Assembly: GCA_001953115.1 (NCBI GenBank)
Contig: LSSL01000077.1
Location: forward strand, 1-26,083
Direction of reading: 5' to 3'
DNA: 26,083 nucleotides
Source of the DNA: Smittium mucronatum
Taxonomy: Eukaryota; Kickxellomycota; Harpellomycetes; Harpellales; Legeriomycetaceae
The notes under the pieces were generated by a model. It saw only the letters and a program-made list of their open reading frames with translations. It did not search any database and was not told the DNA's origin. Position numbers and translations under genes: made by a program. Positions 1 through 19,595 of the stretch are shown here, piece by piece (position 1 is the first letter of the stretch; the number at the start of each line of letters is the position of its first letter).

Positions 1-124
1 GGCACATAGAGCGGAGGCTACAAACGTCCATAGAGAAAAAATTTAATTCAGATTCTTTTAGTAAAAATTCAAACAAAAGAATAGTTATTTAGCATTATAA
101 ATGATTGAGTAATATATTTTGAGC
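1..124. other. Left flank of the ribozyme element, no gene seen
   Basis: The first 40 bases are relatively G+C-rich; the rest is ordinary AT-rich sequence. I recognise no coding or RNA feature. It may be the interrupted left part of the degenerate repeat that resumes after 790, but I could not align it convincingly. Confidence 0.4.
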
Positions 125-140
125 ATATATAGCATCATCA
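125..140 (+). repeat. Left target-site duplication of the ribozyme element
   Basis: The 16-mer ATATATAGCATCATCA is repeated without mismatch at 775-790. The bases just outside differ (C124 against T774), so the duplication is bounded. The element between the copies starts exactly at the first paired base of the ribozyme. Part of the 16-mer is simple AT, but the AGCATCATCA portion is specific. Confidence 0.9.
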
Positions 141-219
141 CCCCTAAGAGTGAAATGCCTTGCCGTGGTTTAGGGGCTTAATAGTGTACTTTTCGAAGTA
201 CACTAGACTAAAATTTCAC
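141..219 (+). ncRNA. HDV-like self-cleaving ribozyme
   Basis: The nested double-pseudoknot order of the HDV family is complete. P1 is CCCCTAA 141-147 with TTAGGGG 170-176 (7 bp). P2 is GTGAAAT 150-156 with ATTTCAC 213-219 (7 bp). P3 is GCC 157-159 with GGT 167-169 (3 bp, one G-U), with a 7-nt L3, 160-166 (UUGCCGU). P4 is AGTGTACTT 183-191 with AAGTACACT 196-204 (9 bp) capped by UUCG; U182-A205 can extend it. J4/2 is GACUAAA (206-212), which puts a cytosine, C208, at the place of the catalytic C (C75 in genomic HDV), followed by AA. U160 and G165 match the L3 U-G wobble. P1.1 is weak: G162-C177 next to U161-U178. The predicted cut is between 140 and 141. Oddity: position 1 is C paired with G, whereas most family members have G in a G-U wobble. 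Activity is inferred, not shown. Confidence 0.9.
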
Positions 220-702
220 GCAGAGTTGTACTATTCTTGGTTGGGAGTAGTGGAGATAGCGCACAGCAATTCTGAGGACAGAGATTCCAGAGGAGGACCA
301 TCTCGAAACAGGAGGAACCGATCGTTTACCACAGCTGAGACATAGTCAAGTGCACAAGTCCAGCGTTCGACAGTCAGACGGATCTCAGCGTCTAACAGCT
401 ATTTGTAGGAAATCCATGTCGATCAAACCCACGTTTGGGTAGGAGCCTAATTTTATTAATCCTGTTAGAAGTAGGCTCTGACTAGGAGCTCAATAGCTTC
501 AATGAACTGTTGTTCATTGACAAAGAGCTTAATTCATGACTGCACGTAATCTCAGTCATCCAGATTACTTGAAGCAATGCCAGGGGGGGTCTTTCGGTTG
601 GTAGATTGAACCCTTTTCCCGTAGGTACGCAGCCGGTAGTCCGGCAGAGGAGCTTGTTGTAGTTAGGATAATAGTCTTTTCTATACGTCTTTTTCTTTTT
701 TT
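220..702 (+). other. Structured non-coding body of the ribozyme element
   Basis: Dense local pairing: AGACG 376-380 with CGTCT 389-393; ACCCA 427-431 with TGGGT 436-440; GAGCCTA 443-449 with TAGGCTC 472-478; a 9-bp hairpin 499-520 with a TGTT loop; interlocking 7-bp helices 536-568; GCCGG 632-636 with CCGGC 641-645. T runs follow at 677-680, 690-694 and 696-702. The open frame at 160-345 starts at TTG inside the ribozyme and is not taken as a gene. I compared the body with what I recall of 5S, 7SL/SRP, U-snRNA, RNase P and MRP RNAs and large-rRNA domains and recognised none. It may derive from an unfamiliar cellular RNA. Confidence 0.6.
248..259 (+). promoter_or_regulatory. Possible pol III A-box-like motif
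   Basis: TAGTGGAGATAG fits the 12-nt form of the A-box pattern TRGYNNARNNNG. GATCAAACC at 421-429 fits the B-box pattern GWTCRANNC. The about 160-bp spacing is long, and T runs from 677 would stop pol III before the element's 3' end. A match of this length can arise by chance. Confidence 0.2.
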
Positions 703-774
703 CAAATTTTTTTAGTATAGTTTTTAATGACGTTATCTTACAATAAAATTCCGTGATACAAAAAATAATAATAT

Positions 775-790
775 ATATATAGCATCATCA
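775..790 (+). repeat. Right target-site duplication of the ribozyme element
   Basis: Perfect copy of the 16-mer at 125-140, directly after the A-rich end of the element. The sequence then runs on into the degenerate tandem repeat, which suggests the element landed in or beside that array. Confidence 0.9.
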
Positions 791-807
791 ACCAATTAAA
801 GAGATAA

Positions 808-1300
808 ATGAAAAAATCTCTTCTTGCAGAAAAAGTAGCAATTTTTCTCTGTGGTATTGGGTCATAAATCTACAGTTTTTGACCATTATTAGTAGCTGTG
901 AACACGGCTCTATAGCTTTGGTCAGTGAAAAAGATACTTCCTGTCCATTAAAAGCCACTTTTTTCAAACTAATTATTGGGCTAAGAGGCGTCTATTTTTG
1001 ACCAATATCAACGGTTTAAAATTAAATCCTATAGCTGAGGTCGAGAAAAACGAAACTTCCTGCCCAAAAAGATCCATAGTTTAATCAGTAATATTGATCT
1101 ACAAGGTGGTTATTTTCGACCAATATTTTTTCATAGAAACCTATATTTATAACTTTGGTCAAGAAAAATGGCACTTGCTGTCCAAAAAGTGATCTTACAA
1201 TAAAATTCCGTGATACAAAAAAAAGAGTAACAGTCCAAAAAGTGGCCATTTTATCCGAATAAAATGGGGTTTTGGCTAGGTGAAAATCTCATCCCATAGT
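808..1300 (+). repeat. Degenerate tandem repeat, period about 119 bp
   Basis: Recurring landmarks: TTTTTGACCATTATT-like blocks with GACC at 881, 1000 and 1118; CTATAGCTTTGGTCA-like blocks about 30-50 bases later; then ACTTCCTGTCCAAAAAG-like blocks. Spacing is 119 and 118 bases. A partial unit lies before 881, and another continues after 1233 until similarity fades near 1300. Units are clearly diverged. No coding potential. A small retroelement fragment (1192-1232) interrupts the third unit. Confidence 0.75.
1192..1232 (+). mobile_element. 41-bp 5'-truncated copy of the ribozyme element
   Basis: Positions 1192-1222 are identical to 735-765 in the full-length copy, followed by a few A-rich bases. 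The insert is flanked by perfect 12-bp direct repeats, GTCCAAAAAGTG at 1180-1191 and 1233-1244. Removing the insert and one duplication restores a continuous tandem-repeat unit, which independently confirms the insertion. Confidence 0.85.
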
Positions 1301-1829: not shown

Positions 1830-2102
1830 CAGGGTTTTTCATATCAATAGACCCTTTTTTTCATTCCAATAGACCTTTTTTTCTAGACCTGTGGGGTCAT
1901 TCTTATAATCAATAAGTCGCTTTCACATATGAACTTTAGTTATGTAAACATCGGTTAAAATTTATTGTTCTTAGATATCATCAGTTTTTTTATTTTGATT
2001 GGTATAAATAATTATTCAGTCCAATAATAACTCTTTGATATTTTCATCAAAAAAATAACCCCGTAAATCTAAAAAAAGGTTCTATTGCTATGAAAACCCC
2101 TG
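1830..2102 (+). mobile_element. Foldback MITE, copy A
   Basis: The left end CAGGGTTTTTCATATCAATA and the reverse complement of the right end CAGGGGTTTTCATAGCAATA form an inverted repeat of about 32 bp, and weaker pairing continues inward through the AGACCTGTGGGGTCATT block. The left arm has two copies of a subterminal unit (CAATAGACC plus a T tract plus CATTC); the right arm has one. A copy about 80% identical by eye lies at 19297-19595 in the same orientation. No ORF; no clear target-site duplication. CAGGG ends are reminiscent of hAT-type elements, but without an 8-bp duplication I do not assign a superfamily. Confidence 0.8.
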
Positions 2103-4038: not shown

Positions 4039-5544
4039 TCAAAGTGAGAACTCTGTAGATAATTGCTCAAATGATTTGCCCTTTGTTTCTGGAAGATAAT
4101 AATAAAAAAATGGGCCAAATACAGTTAACGTTGCCATAAACAAACAAAAGACATAGTTTCCGAAAGACCTTTGAAGAGATAGGAAAGTTGATCCAACAAT
4201 AAAAACAAAAATCCAATTCGAAGCTATTGAAATGGAATTCCCCACTGCTATAGCCCTTGTATCAAAAATCTCTGTAGAAATCAGAAAAGGTAGTGGTCCC
4301 AGACCTAAAGCAAAGGAAATGATGGATAGAAATATTGATGTAGCCGACAAATAGTCGAATTTATATACCAAAGATATTGTTAACATCCCTAAACTTAGGA
4401 ACATAGATATCATTGAAAAAAATAGTAACTTCTTCCTGCCAACTTTGTCAATAACTGAAGCTGATACGATTGTAGAAGTGAAAAAAATCAAACCACCTAG
4501 AATAGTCAGCAATGAGCTTGTGGATTTTGTGAAGATCTTATTGAAGATCTCGAAGGAAAAAAAAAAGATTGTATTTATTCCAGAAAGTTGTTGAGCCATT
4601 TGCAAAAGAAATACCAAAATAATGGGTTGACGATATTTTTTAACTCTTAGGATTGAAATAAGGTTAAGTTTCTGTTCTATTCCTTCAATTTCGTTGATAT
4701 TCTCAATTTGCTCTACATTTCTGTTCAGATAAGAACGCGGTTCAATTCCGTTTTGGATGCATCCATTATTTTCCCTCTCACATATCCATGAATCATATTC
4801 ATCTTCAACATTATTTTTACCCCTTAATTTACGAAGAGAAAATTTTGATTCTTCCTCCTGAGCCTTTTCACATAAATATTTAGGGCTCTCAACAATATAG
4901 AATAAAAATATTCCGTTGAGAAAACTTATGCATATTCCAGTACCTAAAACAACTCTCCATCCTTTTCCTGTGTTTAAAAAGTAACCTATGAGTTGAGAAA
5001 TGAAAATTCCTAAGGATAGGCTCAAAGCAAAAAACATATTCAAAAACCCTCTAGATTCAAGTGGTGCTATTTCGGTCAGGTACATTGGGACAATTACAAA
5101 TCCGATTCCTGCACCGATTCCTGATATTAACCTTCCCAATACAAGCATAAAAGGCGAGAAAGATATTGCTTCAAAAATGGATCCAACAAACAAAATTGCG
5201 CTGTTCAAGATCAAAGACTTTTTTCTACCTAACGAATCTGTCAATTTACTAGAAAAAATTGAGCCTACAAGCCCACCAATAGCTAGAACTGATGTTACAA
5301 ATCCAAAATAAAAATCAGACATTGGTAGACATAATGGAAGTTCAAATGTCACTTTTATTCCTTCTCCTTTGTTACAACTTGTTATGGAATCCTTGATGTT
5401 GTTTAACTCTGCCAGTTTATAACCAATGATGAAAGAACCTAATGATGCTATAAATCCACAATATATGCAGAAAAAAGTAATTTCGTTTTTTTGTCGCTGG
5501 CTGTAATTGTCGGATAGATTAAATATTTGAGTCTCAGATATCAT
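4039..5544 (-). CDS. MFS sugar transporter (GLUT/HXT-like), paralogue 1
   Basis: A complete intronless 501-residue protein of typical SLC2-family length, ATG to TGA. About 12 membrane segments are visible (near residues 24-45, 77-98, 110-128, 131-152, 165-190, 197-217, 307-334, 344-364, 371-393, 400-424, 436-456 and 463-484), with a long charged loop at 221-305. Family motifs: DSLGRKK (103-109), GRLISGIGAGIG (137-148), YLTEIAPLESRG (155-166), VESPKYL (218-224), QQLSGIN (318-324), DKVGRKK (366-372), a GPLPF block (416-420) and PETKG (485-489). GYKLAELN (41-48) and RGKNNVEDEYDSW (241-253) point to the fungal YBR241C-like branch. The Trp of the GPxPW block in mammalian GLUTs is Phe420 here, and the Asn in GLUT1 SNWTSN is Val. 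Probably passive or proton-coupled hexose transport at the plasma or an internal membrane; substrate unknown. Confidence 0.95.
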   Translation of the reverse strand: MISETQIFNLSDNYSQRQKNEITFFCIYCGFIASLGSFIIGYKLAELNNIKDSITSCNKGEGIKVTFELPLCLPMSDFYFGFVTSVLAIGGLVGSIFSSKLTDSLGRKKSLILNSAILFVGSIFEAISFSPFMLVLGRLISGIGAGIGFVIVPMYLTEIAPLESRGFLNMFFALSLSLGIFISQLIGYFLNTGKGWRVVLGTGICISFLNGIFLFYIVESPKYLCEKAQEEESKFSLRKLRGKNNVEDEYDSWICERENNGCIQNGIEPRSYLNRNVEQIENINEIEGIEQKLNLISILRVKKYRQPIILVFLLQMAQQLSGINTIFFFSFEIFNKIFTKSTSSLLTILGGLIFFTSTIVSASVIDKVGRKKLLFFSMISMFLSLGMLTISLVYKFDYLSATSIFLSIISFALGLGPLPFLISTEIFDTRAIAVGNSISIASNWIFVFIVGSTFLSLQRSFGNYVFCLFMATLTVFGPFFYYYLPETKGKSFEQLSTEFSL

Positions 5545-7545: not shown

Positions 7546-9120
7546 TTAAAGTGTGAACTTTATTAATATTTGATCAAACGTTTTTTCTCTAGTTTCTGGA
7601 AGATAGTAATAAAAGAATAAGCCAAAGATTGCTAAAGACGACATATACAGAAAGAACACATAGTCACCGAAAAGTTTCTGAAGAGGGAAGAAAGTTGATC
7701 CAACGATGAAAACAAAAGACCAATTCACAGTCATTGAGAAAGAGTTCCCTACTGCCATGGCTCTCGTATCAAAAATCTCTGTAGCAAGAAGAAATGGTAG
7801 TGTACCTAATCCTGGAGCGAACGACATGATGACAAGAAATGTTGATATAACCAACATATAATTGAGTTTGCATATTAAAGATATTGTAAACAACCCTAAA
7901 CTCACAAACATGGATATCATAGATAAAAAAAGCAGTTTTCTACGATTGATCTTATCGATAACAAAGGCTGCTAAAATTGTCAAAATTAGATAATTTAAGC
8001 CAACCATAAGCGTCAACATAGAACTTGTGAATTTATTGAAAATCTTGTTGAAGATTGCACTTGAAAAAAAAATAAAAATATTTATTCCAGATATTTGTTG
8101 ACACATTCGCAAAAAAAACACCAAAATGATTGCTTGCCGATACTTCCTGAATTGAAAGATCGTAATGAAATTAATTTTTTGTAATTTTTCATCAAATTCA
8201 TGAAGGTATTCACTCTGCTCAATACTACTATTCAAGTTGTGAAGATCGTTTCCATTTATTTCTTCATTGGTTTTCTCGATACTATGACCCCAAGTATTGA
8301 ATTCAAATTCAACATTATCCATACCCCTTAATTTTTTGAGAGAAAATTTAGATTCATTTTTATGATTGTTGATATATAAATATCTAGGGCTTTCAACAAT
8401 ATATAATAATGTAATTCCGCTGAAAACACTCATGAATATTCCAGAGCCCAACACAACTCTCCATCCATGATCTGTATTCAAAAAATGGCCCAATACTTGA
8501 GAAACAAAGGTACCCAAAGCTGCTCCCACGGTGTTAAACATATTTAAAAATCCTCTAGATTTAATTGGTGCTATTTCAGTCAGGTACATTGGGACAATTA
8601 CAAAGCCGATTCCTGCTCCAATTCCAGAGAGGAACCTTCCCAGTACAAGCATAAAAGGAGAGTAAGCAAATGTCTCAAGTATGGATCCAACAAACAAAAT
8701 TGAGCTGTTCAAAATCAAAGATTTTTTTCTACCTAACGAATCTGCCAATTTGCCAGATAAAATTGAGCCTATAAGCCCCCCAAGTGCGAGAACAGATGTC
8801 ACAAACCCAAAATAAACCTCAGACATTGGTAAACATAATGGTAGCCTGAACATTTCTTCGTTTTCTCCCGACTTATTACAGCTCATTATCGACTTTTTGG
8901 GATTGTTTAGTTCTGCCAACTTATATCCAGCAATGAAGGAAGTTAAGGATGTGATCAATCCACAAAGCATGCAGAATCTTGTCAATTTAAATTCATTTTG
9001 AAAATTGTAGTTAGCAGAAGAATTATATATTTTATCTTTCGACGAAATTAACATTTTTGGAACCTCATCATCAGAAGGAATAGGAGGATGCTGAAGCTCC
9101 CTAAAAGATTCTGCAGCCAT
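7546..9120 (-). CDS. MFS sugar transporter (GLUT/HXT-like), paralogue 2
   Basis: A complete intronless 524-residue protein, ATG to TAA, about 60% identical by eye to its neighbour at 4039-5544 on the same strand: a tandem duplication. Shared motifs: GYKLAELN (65-72), DSLGRKK (127-133), GRFLSGIGAGIG (161-172), YLTEIAPIKSRG (179-190), VESPRYL (242-248), QQISGIN (341-347). Several positions conserved in the family and in paralogue 1 differ: QQLSGIN to QQISGIN, DKVGRKK to DKINRRK (389-395), GPLP to GTLP (439-442), PETKG to PETRE (508-512). The N-terminus has 22 extra residues (Pro- and acid-rich) before Met23, which aligns near the start of paralogue 1. I kept the first ATG because the extension has coding-like base use, but Met23 is a fair alternative. 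Likely sugar transport with altered specificity or relaxed constraint; the reading frame is intact. Confidence 0.95.
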   Translation of the reverse strand: MAAESFRELQHPPIPSDDEVPKMLISSKDKIYNSSANYNFQNEFKLTRFCMLCGLITSLTSFIAGYKLAELNNPKKSIMSCNKSGENEEMFRLPLCLPMSEVYFGFVTSVLALGGLIGSILSGKLADSLGRKKSLILNSSILFVGSILETFAYSPFMLVLGRFLSGIGAGIGFVIVPMYLTEIAPIKSRGFLNMFNTVGAALGTFVSQVLGHFLNTDHGWRVVLGSGIFMSVFSGITLLYIVESPRYLYINNHKNESKFSLKKLRGMDNVEFEFNTWGHSIEKTNEEINGNDLHNLNSSIEQSEYLHEFDEKLQKINFITIFQFRKYRQAIILVFFLRMCQQISGINIFIFFSSAIFNKIFNKFTSSMLTLMVGLNYLILTILAAFVIDKINRRKLLFLSMISMFVSLGLFTISLICKLNYMLVISTFLVIMSFAPGLGTLPFLLATEIFDTRAMAVGNSFSMTVNWSFVFIVGSTFFPLQKLFGDYVFFLYMSSLAIFGLFFYYYLPETREKTFDQILIKFTL

Positions 9121-9974: not shown

Positions 9975-10256
9975 TTAGGGTTAATTACTAAAACAGTCAA
10001 GATTTTGAAAGTATTTACAAAAATAGTCAAATAAATTAATGCGGTTTCAAAATTGGCGAATAAAAGCTAGTTTGGTTTATGAAATATAAATAAGATAGCT
10101 CATAGAGCAAAAATTCGCCGCACATTGTTATTTTTATTATCCATTTGCCCAAACTATATTCTGGAAACAAATTCTCACTTCATCCCTATTTTGATCTAGA
10201 AAAAGAAAAGCCACACCTATTTTGGGGTTAAAATTTTGATATATTATATTTGAAGC
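9975..10256 (+). repeat. Left inverted-repeat arm of the 1.6-kb element
   Basis: Matches the reverse complement of 11266-11575. The alignment is best from the GTCAAGATTTTG block near 9997 to TATATTTGAA ending at 10254. The right arm has an extra stretch of about 20 bases near its outer end. Confidence 0.75.
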
Positions 10257-11265
10257 TCATCTGACTGTTCTAAAAAAATTGCATTTGCTCCGTTAAGATA
10301 GATAATTTTATCAAAAAACTACTCTGAGCCACTCATGAATATTAATGTGTGGCATTTATTATTTCTTTTTGATTATTTCACTTAATTTTTTTAAAAATCA
10401 TTCTAGGTCTGTGAATAATTTACCCCCCACCATACATTATGTTTCTCAATCCGCGTAATACTTTCAATTGAATTTCATCCAAGATTAATTTGATAAAGCT
10501 ACTAATTTCTCTACATAAAAATTATTACTTAGCCACAATTTTCTTAATTTAAACATTCTAAATTTCAGAAAAAATTTACTTTTCACAATCAGTCAACATT
10601 AAAACATTCATTTTTTAGCGTGCATTTAATACTGTAATTGAGTATTTATATTGTTAAACTTGACATGTATCACTGACGCTGCAAATTTTGATATATATAT
10701 ACATATTCACAATTAAAAATCAATATTTCAATCACGTATCAAATATAACCTGTAAATTTAAAATTGATAAGTTAAGGCTATCAAAAATTAATTTCAAAAT
10801 ACTAATTTTCTTAGTAATCATAATTTAGCTAATAAAAATCAATTTACTGATAAATAAGTAATATTTTTTCAACATACTAATTTTATAAAAGATAAAAAAC
10901 CATCTACAAACTCATATTACTATAAAAATACAGATACATATTTTCTACATATATTTATTATACATTTTTTTAGAATGGTTGAAGAGTCTTTAGCATTCTG
11001 AGGATCTCAGATAAAATAAAAAGTAAAAATATTACTCAAACCCATTTTTATTTCATTGCTATCTATCCTTATTGAATTATATTTACCTTTTTGGATTTAT
11101 CTATTAAATCAATCAATTAGAGAATTAAAATTCAGATTTATTTGGTGGAAGAAATATATGTTTGAAAAAATAATTTTACAGCCAATTTTACAGTTAACAA
11201 AGTGTATCAGCATTCGAAAGCCTCTATTGAATTTAGTTTTTCAGAGAATAAAAACATTCATGTGA

Positions 11266-11575
11266 AATTCAAATATAATAGAACAAAATTTTAATCCAAA
11301 ATAGGTACGACTTTTCTTTTTCTAGATCAAAATAGGAACGAAGTGTGAATTTATTTCGAGAATATGGTTTAAACCAATGGATAATTGAAATGCTGATGTG
11401 TCATAAAAAAAATTTTCTGTGAGCTATTTTATTTATATTTATCAATCCAAAATAGCTTTATTTGCAAATTTCGAAACCGCATTAATTTATTTGACGGGTT
11501 TTGATAATATTTTGAAAATTTTATTAAATACATCCAAAATCATGACTATTTTTGTATTATCAATTTTAATAATAA
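11266..11575 (-). repeat. Right inverted-repeat arm of the 1.6-kb element
   Basis: Inverted partner of 9975-10256. Conserved over the GATCTAG block and the GAAACCGCATTAATTTATTT block. Just outside, TTGATAG / CTATCAA around 11580-11602 forms a small hairpin that may mark the old element end. Confidence 0.7.
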
Positions 11576-13508
11576 AATATTGATAGTACTGACGCTATCA
11601 AGAAAGAAAAAATAAAAAATAAACGCAAATAAACGTTTTTTGTATAAAAAATATTTTTAAAAAAAAAATCATACCACAATATCCAATTCAAAAAAAATTA
11701 AGTATTAAATCACCCAATAGAAATTTTAGTTTTTTTTAGTTTGATTAATTTAAGATAAAATTTATCATATATTTTTAACTGTTTTTAATTTTTAATTATA
11801 GTTTATACCGGGGATAATTTAAATAAACGTTAAAAATTGGTGTATATTAAAAATTTAAATATCATGAATTTCTGGACTAGAATCAATAATATTGAGTTTT
11901 ACTTGTATTTATTCTTTTCATATCTTATAAACATCCGATTATTTCGGTTATAATGCGGTTAATCTTGATTTTTATAATAAATATAAAATATAAACATTAT
12001 ATTTACATATATAGAAAAATAAATACACATTAACTTACACCTTTTCCACCAACTAAAATAATAATGATAGAAATTACAAAAATAATAACATATAATTGGA
12101 AGTAGGTTGATCTAATTCAATAATCTTGAAAATTGTCTCACAGATAGTTGATTTGATTTGAAAACTGGTGTGATCGATTTTTTAAAATTAAATATTAGTT
12201 TGGAATTATATAACGCATAAAATTTCTAAACATATTTACCAGTAATATTTAATCAAAATTCTTAAAATTATCTTTATTACTGAATAGAAGATATTCCTTC
12301 ATCAGAAGTATTACAATTAAAATAATCATATTCACTATAATATAAAATCTATAATTCCATACTCTTTTTTGTGTTATTTCGCTTTAAAAAAGTCATAATT
12401 TTTAAATATAATATAAAAAGCTCATAATTTTGAGAAATATGTTTCGAAGTGCAAAAAACTTAATAAAAATTTGTTTAAAAATTAATTCTGTATTCCTTAG
12501 GATCATCCGTATCACCCTGAAAATAAACGTATTAATTTTTAGATACATCTCTGATGAATATTTAGAAAAATTCACTAAATATATCTAAGTTAAACTTTAA
12601 GATAAAAGAGCGGAAAGCGTTCATTTTTTCAACATTAAAAAAAAATCAGCCAAATGCTCTTTTTTCGGTTACTTATTTATTTTTTTATTATTTTTACTCA
12701 TTTTTTGTTGAAATGGTATAATTTTACGTCCAAGATATTTATATCAATATAAATGATCGATTATTTCTAGATAAATTACTGGTTAAATTTCTTGGATTTT
12801 TTATGCGCTATATGCTTTAGAATTAGAATTTAATTTTTAACAATGCGATTAAACTAGTTTTCAAATTAAATTCACAATGTGCGAGCCAATTTTAACTATT
12901 ATTCAAATATAATTCACTATATCTGACTTAATTGTATTATTTATGGCTCATTTTTCACTATTCTTAAATTAGTTCGCACCACATCAAGTTGGATTTTATT
13001 ATTATTTTGATTTCTTTAACTATTTTTTAATATTTATTGAAATTTGATAATTTTTATTTTAGGGTTTTTATATATATTTTTAAATCTAAAGATGAATAAT
13101 AATTAATATATACTTTTGCTTCGATTTTTTAAAAGTACTATTGAGCAGATTTCTTATCAAAAAACTCGATATTTAAGTTTTATTTTATCTCGGAACTGCT
13201 TTAATCAATCCTTAGAAAAAATCATAATTGTATATTAAATAGTTTTTAAGTTGATATTTATTGGGAATTTTTTATTCAAAATTATCTCTGATTAATTTTT
13301 GATATTCATAATTTCATATGTAAAAAAATAAGATTGAAAATTAAGTATTTGCATAAAATACAATTAAATCTAAAAATATTTTTATTCGATTAAGATTTTG
13401 AATATATTCAAGTTTTCATACATATTTATGCTAATAATTTATCATAACACACAAACAATAAAACCTCGATAAAAAAATTAAATATGCAGAAAGTTATTTT
13501 TAATTAAA
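11576..13508. other. Non-coding AT-rich desert
   Basis: No gene seen. It contains only a degenerate foldback at 12879-12979. Frames are short and of low complexity. Confidence 0.5.
12879..12979. repeat. Small degenerate foldback
   Basis: GTGCGAGC.AATTT (12879-12892) pairs with AAATT.GTTCGCAC (12966-12979): about 13 pairs including one G-U, with one mismatch, around a 73-base loop. Arms are G+C-rich for this region. Possibly a decayed MITE; the GAGCCAATTTT block recurs near 6861 and 21227. Confidence 0.35.
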
Positions 13509-19296: not shown

Positions 19297-19595
19297 CAGG
19301 GTTTTTATTTCCAACAGACCTTTTTTTCTGGATCTGTGGGGTCATTATTATAACCAATAATCCATTTTAACTTATATGCATTGATATATGTCATTATTGG
19401 TTAAAATACTATTGTTCTTGGGTATTATAACTTTTTTTTCTTTTTTATTGGTATAAACAGTTATTCAGTCTAATAATAACGCTTTTTCTATTTTCATCAA
19501 AAAAATAACCCCGCAAATCTAAAAAAGGGGTCTATTGGAATGAAAAAAAGGTAATATTATAATGAAAAAAAGGTATATTACTATGGAAACCCCGG
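19297..19595 (+). mobile_element. Foldback MITE, copy B
   Basis: Second copy of the 1830-2102 element, same orientation, about 80% identical by eye across the interior (for example the TTGGTATAAA and ATTTTCATCAAAAAAATAAC blocks). The ends are inverted repeats: CAGGGTTTTTATTTCCAACA on the left and, on the minus strand, CCGGGGTTTCCATAGTAATA. Here the right arm has three copies of the subterminal AATGAAAAAAAGGT-type unit and the left arm one, the opposite asymmetry to copy A. Centrally, TAACCAATAAT and ATTATTGGTTA pair perfectly over 11 bp. No ORF or clear target-site duplication. Confidence 0.8.

Follow-up and report, generated by a model that had tools for sequence, protein, structure and literature searches.

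Introduction

Short derivatives of non-LTR retroelements that carry HDV-like ribozymes are known (PMC3414825; PMC4035085). In trypanosomatids, the NARTc, RIME and SIDER elements are short, non-coding and dispersed, with a 5' HDV-like ribozyme of ~77 nt whose cut is expected at +1; they share their head (NARTc also its tail) with a named LINE, and their Pr77 is also a promoter (PMC4035085). In Drosophila, the R2 SIDEs and R2/R1 hybrid SIDEs are non-autonomous, carry a 5' HDV-like ribozyme and make use of co-transcription and of the machinery of another element; they lie in 28S rDNA and are rare (PMC3414825). The ribozymes of R2 have a P1 of 6-7 pairs, a P2 of at least 5 and a catalytic C in J4/2, and in some species they cut at the first base of the element (PMC3774820). 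Metazoan non-LTR retrozymes, which are likewise small and non-autonomous, carry a self-cleaving ribozyme of the hammerhead type; they form tandem repeats and circular RNA and have been compared to SINEs (PMC7761336).

Here we describe a repeat family of Smittium mucronatum, an insect-gut fungus (Fungi, Kickxellomycota, Harpellales). The analysis starts from a stretch of 26,083 nucleotides (contig LSSL01000077.1, positions 1 to 26,083 of the forward strand, assembly GCA_001953115.1), hereafter called the window, for which a sequence-only reading had proposed a complete HDV-like ribozyme at the head of a mobile element. That reading had also supposed a microsporidian-like genome; the host is the fungus just named, and the implied strangeness of the find is less than was thought, given the short ribozyme-bearing elements listed above. 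The Smittium element is, like those of trypanosomatids, short, non-coding and dispersed, with the cut expected at +1, but its host is a fungus and no LINE sharing its head or tail was found in the stretches compared. It agrees with the Drosophila SIDEs in being non-autonomous with a 5' ribozyme and in presumably using the machinery of another element after co-transcription, whereas it is dispersed over hundreds of places and ends in a 3' A-run. Alu-like SINEs are non-coding and A-tailed, have target-site duplications and are moved in trans by poly(A)-dependent LINEs; the Smittium element resembles them in these traits, but the polymerase III head of Alu was not found in it.

HDV-like ribozymes have precedent in fungi, one from a 'cold tolerant fungus' being mentioned in PMC3774820. 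No short element with a ribozyme head appeared for any fungus, Kickxellomycota included, in the literature searched, subscription journals lying outside its coverage, and the passages covered of PMC8865084 and PMC7761336 hold no fungal case.

We hypothesise that the repeats form a non-autonomous SINE/SIDE-like family of S. mucronatum with an HDV-like ribozyme as its head, in which self-cleavage sets the 5' end and mobilisation occurs in trans; we regard this account as probably correct. In mode of action the family would, by analogy, most likely resemble trypanosomatid NARTc/SIDER and the Drosophila R2 SIDEs. If the ribozyme is active, ribozyme-headed short retroelements extend from trypanosomes and insects to Kickxellomycota, which bears on whether HDV-like ribozymes originate repeatedly at retroelement 5' ends. 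In addition, the hundreds of natural insertions of this family allow ribozyme sequence, 5' junction and position to be compared.

Anatomy of the candidate ribozyme

A full HDV-type double-pseudoknot fold occupies positions 141-219 of the window, as confirmed letter by letter, and this segment looks like an HDV-like ribozyme, with activity predicted. Its parts are:

141..219, + strand: putative HDV-like ribozyme, cut expected at 140/141
141..147, + strand: P1 5' strand, CCCCUAA, pairs with 170-176
148-149, + strand: J1/2, letters checked
150..156, + strand: P2 5' strand, GUGAAAU, partner strand 213-219 (crosses P1 as a pseudoknot)
157..169, + strand: P3 (157-159/167-169) and L3 (160-166, UUGCCGU, 7 nt)
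162..177, + strand: putative P1.1, single pair G162-C177, positions assigned by analogy with the HDV ribozyme
170..176, + strand: P1 3' strand, UUAGGGG, 7 Watson-Crick pairs with 141-147
177-181, + strand: J1/4, CUUAA (5 nt), letters checked
182..205, + strand: P4, 10 pairs (182-191/196-205), UUCG loop 192-195
206..212, + strand: J4/2, GACUAAA, with putative catalytic C208
213..219, + strand: P2 3' strand, AUUUCAC, 7 Watson-Crick pairs with 150-156

The order P1, P2, P3, P4 and the helix sizes agree with what is required of HDV-like ribozymes (P1 ~7, P2 at least 5 and P3 ~3 pairs). The two perfect, interlocking 7-bp helices that had been claimed for P1 and P2 are borne out by the letters, as is the 3-bp P3 with its 7-nt L3, in which one P3 pair is G.U in the window copy and A-U in the commonest family sequence. 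For P4, the UUCG cap is as had been described, whereas the helix counts 10 pairs and not 9. J4/2 has, as proposed, a C in the catalytic position (C208) followed by A residues; C is found at 208 in 27 of 31 distinct genomic copies and is changed in the other 4. The U and G expected in L3 are present as U160 and G165, which we take to be the reverse-wobble positions. A conserved U and G are described for L3 of HDV-like ribozymes (PMC3774820).

Three features depart from the best known ribozymes of this type. First, J1/4 has 5 nt as against 0-2 nt in R2 (PMC3774820); so short a J1/4 is a trait of R2 ribozymes and is not known to be general among HDV-like ribozymes. Second, C141 stands at the first position, a departure noted in the earlier reading that is real and has a precedent in a Leishmania ribozyme with C1, for which very low activity was ascribed to a C1-A39 mismatch together with a short P2 (PMC4035085). 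Third, P1.1 is weak, as had been suspected, since the position next to G162-C177 is a U161-U178 mismatch and there is one pair at most; columns 162 and 177 are able to pair in 28 of the 31 distinct copies. In HDV the P1.1 mini-helix comprises two pairs.

Folding without pseudoknots, of the 79 nt alone and also with natural flanks, gave P1, P3 and P4 and left both P2 strands free. The folding energy of the 79 nt alone has a z of -2.33 against dinucleotide shuffles, with 4 of 200 shuffles as good, and that of the longer stretch with natural flanks a z of only -0.92. We infer that the ribozyme very likely cleaves itself.

Chance resemblance to the fold

The numerical limits of the descriptors used for searching were picked after the sequence had been seen, the fold itself being the pre-set fold of the family. 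With a loose descriptor, 400 shuffled single-strand windows yielded 162 matches, and the real window had, besides the ribozyme, an AT-rich match at 12153; at window scale a loose match is not significant and carries little weight. A strict descriptor (7 Watson-Crick pairs in each of P1 and P2; 9 or more pairs in P4, no more than one of them G.U) matched the real window once and none of 2000 shuffled single-strand windows. The element has a higher G+C content than the window (0.42 vs 0.24); for this reason its own first 125 nt were also shuffled, and an intermediate descriptor (7 pairs in P1, 6 or more in both P2 and P4, one G.U allowed per helix) found no match, at any position within them, in 40,000 shuffles. 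It is thus very improbable that a stable 5' hairpin region merely resembles the HDV fold by chance: the frequent loose matches, the lack of an Rfam match and covariation no higher than in shuffles (below) are in line with such a coincidence, but the tighter descriptors (0/2000 and 0/40,000) are not, nor is the fact that the fold begins on the first base of the element as fixed independently.

Element, ends and copy number

The boundaries of the window copy are given by a 16-bp duplication, since positions 125-140 are identical to 775-790 and the element is therefore 141-774. The features are:

125..140, no strand: target-site duplication, 5' copy, 16 bp, ATATATAGCATCATCA
141..774, + strand: non-coding SINE-like retroelement, full-length copy, bounded by the 16-bp duplication
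742..765, + strand: AATAAA (742-747) and, after 12 nt, an A-run (760-765), probably the poly(A) signal and the tail
775..790, no strand: target-site duplication, 3' copy, identical to 125-140
1180..1243, + strand: 5'-truncated copy reduced to the tail (1191-1232), flanked by direct repeats of 11 bp (1180-1190, 1233-1243)

The first base of the element is also the first base of P1 (141), and the earlier claim that the predicted 5' product end coincides with the boundary set by the target-site duplication holds, the 16-bp repeat ending at 140. The longest stop-to-stop frame in 141-774 is 63 aa on the element's own strand and 100 aa on the opposite strand. In the truncated copy at 1191-1232, eight bases lie between the A-run and the 3' repeat.

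The genome searched was a 73.8 Mb assembly of S. mucronatum; the published assembly is given as 102.35 Mb with 26.05% GC (PMC5954228). The family appears there as a non-coding repeat of ~625 nt ending in AATAAA and an A-run, with at least 43 matches, of which 41 are long including the window copy (40 scored of 2683 first-look candidates). Among 29 copies with a readable 3' end, 23 retain AATAAA, and the A-runs measure 0-15 nt. A 26-nt core of the ribozyme occurs exactly at 265 places and a 26-nt tail at 518; the surplus of tails fits 5' truncation, with mutation and contig ends contributing. The family thus shows the marks of retroposition (TPRT), namely target-site duplication, A-run and 5'-truncated copies, and the make-up of SIDE/NARTc in being short and non-coding and in having an HDV-like ribozyme, here a candidate, at the 5' end. 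Comparison of the element with phages, viral contigs and prokaryote genome contigs gave no match, which is expected because it is a fungal repeat.

Among the copies whose ribozymes are most alike (L062-L090), many lie within ~600 bases of a contig end, as if young copies broke the assembly. Tandem dimers or long forms, which would have suggested a route through circular RNA, were hinted at by head-tail distances and by C86. The two examined were rejected: L099 (562-740) and L100 (396-681) have the same copy on both sides of a run of N and are scaffolding artefacts. As far as these two go, the family differs from the tandemly repeated retrozymes.

Insertion boundary across the family

We collected 62 copies of the ribozyme region and removed one that was the window copy again (L061); of the remaining 61, the 27 with a readable tail and enough flank were used and 34 were dropped. 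In 18 of the 27 copies the predicted cut is adjoined by a direct repeat 7 bp or more in length, which ends at -1 in 17 and at -2 in one, with low-complexity repeats in three of these 18 duplications (L012, L023, L024), whereas exchanging flanks between copies gave a mean of 2.03 and a maximum of 6 of 27 over 200 rounds. The upstream letters vary between copies. Two copies, L026 and L028, have common flanks and probably represent a single place that was assembled twice; the 18 include neither of them. The placing of +1 of the HDV-like anatomy at the 5' end of a retro-inserted element, claimed at first for a single copy, therefore holds across the family, and the expected HDV-like cut site is the insertion boundary by an independent criterion. 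This boundary would equally result from a fixed transcription start, and it is only the fold that speaks for a ribozyme.

The Smittium junctions are mostly sharp, whereas variable 5' junctions are reported for R2 where cleavage falls at the end of the element (PMC3774820); the cut predicted here at the first base has its counterpart in R2 of some species. Small variation of the 5' junction is seen in L005, L010, L012 and L017, which start with CTCC instead of CCCC, and in L011, which has three foreign bases at the junction (AAG before CTAAG).

Covariance models and covariation

Two checks that had been suggested for the candidate, a covariance-model search and a search for compensatory changes among genomic copies, did not come out in its favour. 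Rfam at gathering thresholds gave no match over the whole window, no HDV family appeared in window 1-1300 at E up to 10, and RF00094 had no match over the S. mucronatum genome. Over 31 distinct ribozyme copies, which are of a single young family, helix pairing was 94.5% as against 94.5% in shuffles, the covariation score was 0.068 against a shuffled mean of 0.068, and double changes numbered 2 against 1.5; in L018 a P1 pair has gone from U-A to C-G. When the structure was slid along the alignment, pairing favoured the true position (94.5% vs at most 47.7%), as expected for a structure derived from these same sequences, and double changes did not (2 vs 2-4).

These failures are not decisive against a ribozyme. 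The copies are one young family decaying after insertion, for which reason the covariation result does not decide, and the Rfam result does not decide because the Rfam HDV model is not known to include the P2 pseudoknot. A ribozyme candidate as complete as this one can, as the case shows, escape Rfam's model.

Conservation among copies

How well the fold is preserved depends on how the copies are chosen. With the intermediate descriptor, 12 of 31 copies keep the fold in a set chosen by similarity of the whole element, and 30 of 31 in a set chosen by similarity of the ribozyme. The fraction of minor letters is 0.058 in the ribozyme and 0.025-0.060 in the body for the whole-element set; in the other set the values are 0.005 and 0.021-0.075, a difference to be read with the selection by ribozyme similarity in mind. 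Divergence in the whole-element set thus shows no selection on the ribozyme. An insertion of ~43 nt behind element position 96, present in L064, L067 and 15 other loci, separates two subfamilies of 37 and 17 copies; their majority letters agree in every one of the 436 columns compared, so that they are uninformative on selection.

One reading of these figures is that the ribozyme worked in source elements and that the window copy and most others are now dead fossils. The decay of copies at the pace of the element body, the 19 of 31 whole-element copies that fail the descriptor and the altered C208 in 4 of 31 distinct copies are what such a history would leave behind. Every helix is nevertheless intact in the window copy, and the fold is kept in 30 of 31 ribozyme-selected copies, many of them with identical 79-mers, which suggests recent movement; we therefore consider the fossil state improbable, and a ribozyme still competent to cleave remains our preferred reading.

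Transcription of the element

A classical SINE begins with a polymerase III head (tRNA, 7SL or 5S type; A box and B box). No tRNA was found in the element by tRNA search, and no Rfam match gave it a polymerase III head. Scored with degenerate A- and B-box patterns, the element has a best B-box match of 8/11 and an A-box-like word at 166-176 that agrees with the degenerate pattern at 11 of 11 positions. Runs of five to seven T lie at 690-725, upstream of the tail, and T-runs of such length are expected to stop polymerase III. The AATAAA 12 nt before the A-run suggests a polymerase II poly(A) signal, and read-through by polymerase II is, by a small margin, our favoured source of the element RNA.

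The first 79 nt might instead be an internal promoter or start-site element, the 5' end being a transcription start and self-cleavage absent or secondary. A fixed start site also yields precise 5' ends, the A-box-like word at 166-176 is of the kind that such a promoter could contain, and trypanosomatid Pr77 offers a model, being both promoter and ribozyme in one sequence. A promoter alone would, however, not need crossing helices of seven pairs, a hairpin of 10 pairs and C-U-A-A, all in the right order, a combination not found in 40,000 shuffles, and there is no tRNA and a B box of only 8/11. We hold this explanation to be unlikely, and a 5' end made by ribozyme cleavage to be the more probable.

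Search for a helper LINE

LINE-type reverse transcriptases with long open frames are present in the genome, and one LINE-type locus (L092) ends, like the Smittium element, in AATAAA and an A-run. The exact head or tail motif of the element was absent from the stretches compared at 30 reverse transcriptase loci (L031-L060), most LINE ends lying outside these stretches, and with the same limit on the ends covered the best ungapped matches in 17 loci were 21/29 for the tail and 24/44 for the head. Patterns that exclude the element's own upstream letters occur at 4, 7 and 3 places in the genome; two pairs of places of the 7-place pattern have common upstream letters, as does one pair of the 3-place pattern. 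The tail ATTCCGTGATACAAAA follows non-element letters at C1288:6062 and C2515:4576, and at C748:26345 and C2730:9645, each pair having common upstream letters; these would be duplicated truncated copies or another family with the same tail. We find it likely that the element is moved in trans by a LINE. Because no LINE with its ends was met in the stretches compared, and no polymerase III head in the element, the family is classed here neither as a SIDE nor as a classical SINE.

Proposed mechanism

We propose that the family spreads as follows: 1) transcription from outside, most likely read-through by RNA polymerase II, would enter a copy and give a chimeric RNA; 2) the ribozyme would fold during transcription and cut 5' of C141; 3) the cut would leave an element RNA with a 5'-OH that starts exactly at the element; 4) the element's AATAAA would cause the RNA to end in poly(A); 5) the reverse transcriptase of a LINE would, in trans, copy the RNA into new sites by target-primed reverse transcription; and, 6) the products would be A-tailed copies with target-site duplications, some of them 5'-truncated and the full-length ones starting at the cut site. 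The sequences directly show the anatomy, the many copies, the agreement between +1 and the duplications, the A-run and the truncated copy in the window; self-cleavage, the source of the RNA and movement in trans are inferred.

A bolder reading would make the family a class of its own, a promoterless dispersed SINE of an early-diverging fungus that would use host transcription at each landing site, with a ribozyme at its head in place of a polymerase III promoter and its own poly(A) signal, moved in trans by a poly(A)-dependent LINE and not itself a deleted LINE. We put this forward tentatively, as somewhat less than an even prospect; the A-box-like word and the LINE ends outside the stretches compared weaken the terms 'promoterless' and 'not a deleted LINE'.

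Other repeats and genes of the window

A second repeat, of ~240 nt, is present in two copies at window 1835-2100 and 19300-19590, which are 82-89% alike over two stretches; its ends are mutual inverted repeats (AATAGACC...GGTCTATT) and, judged by its letters, it looks like a MITE. Window 9999-11522 has two pairs of inverted arms, of 116 nt (80%) and 66 nt (83% complementary), around ~1.5 kb, and is possibly an old DNA transposon or foldback element. On the - strand, two sugar-transporter genes (Sugar_tr) stand in tandem at 4039-5544 and 7546-9120; they are related to each other, with 74% DNA identity over two 300-nt stretches, and the best match of the window transporter, at 65% identity, is from Smittium mucronatum.
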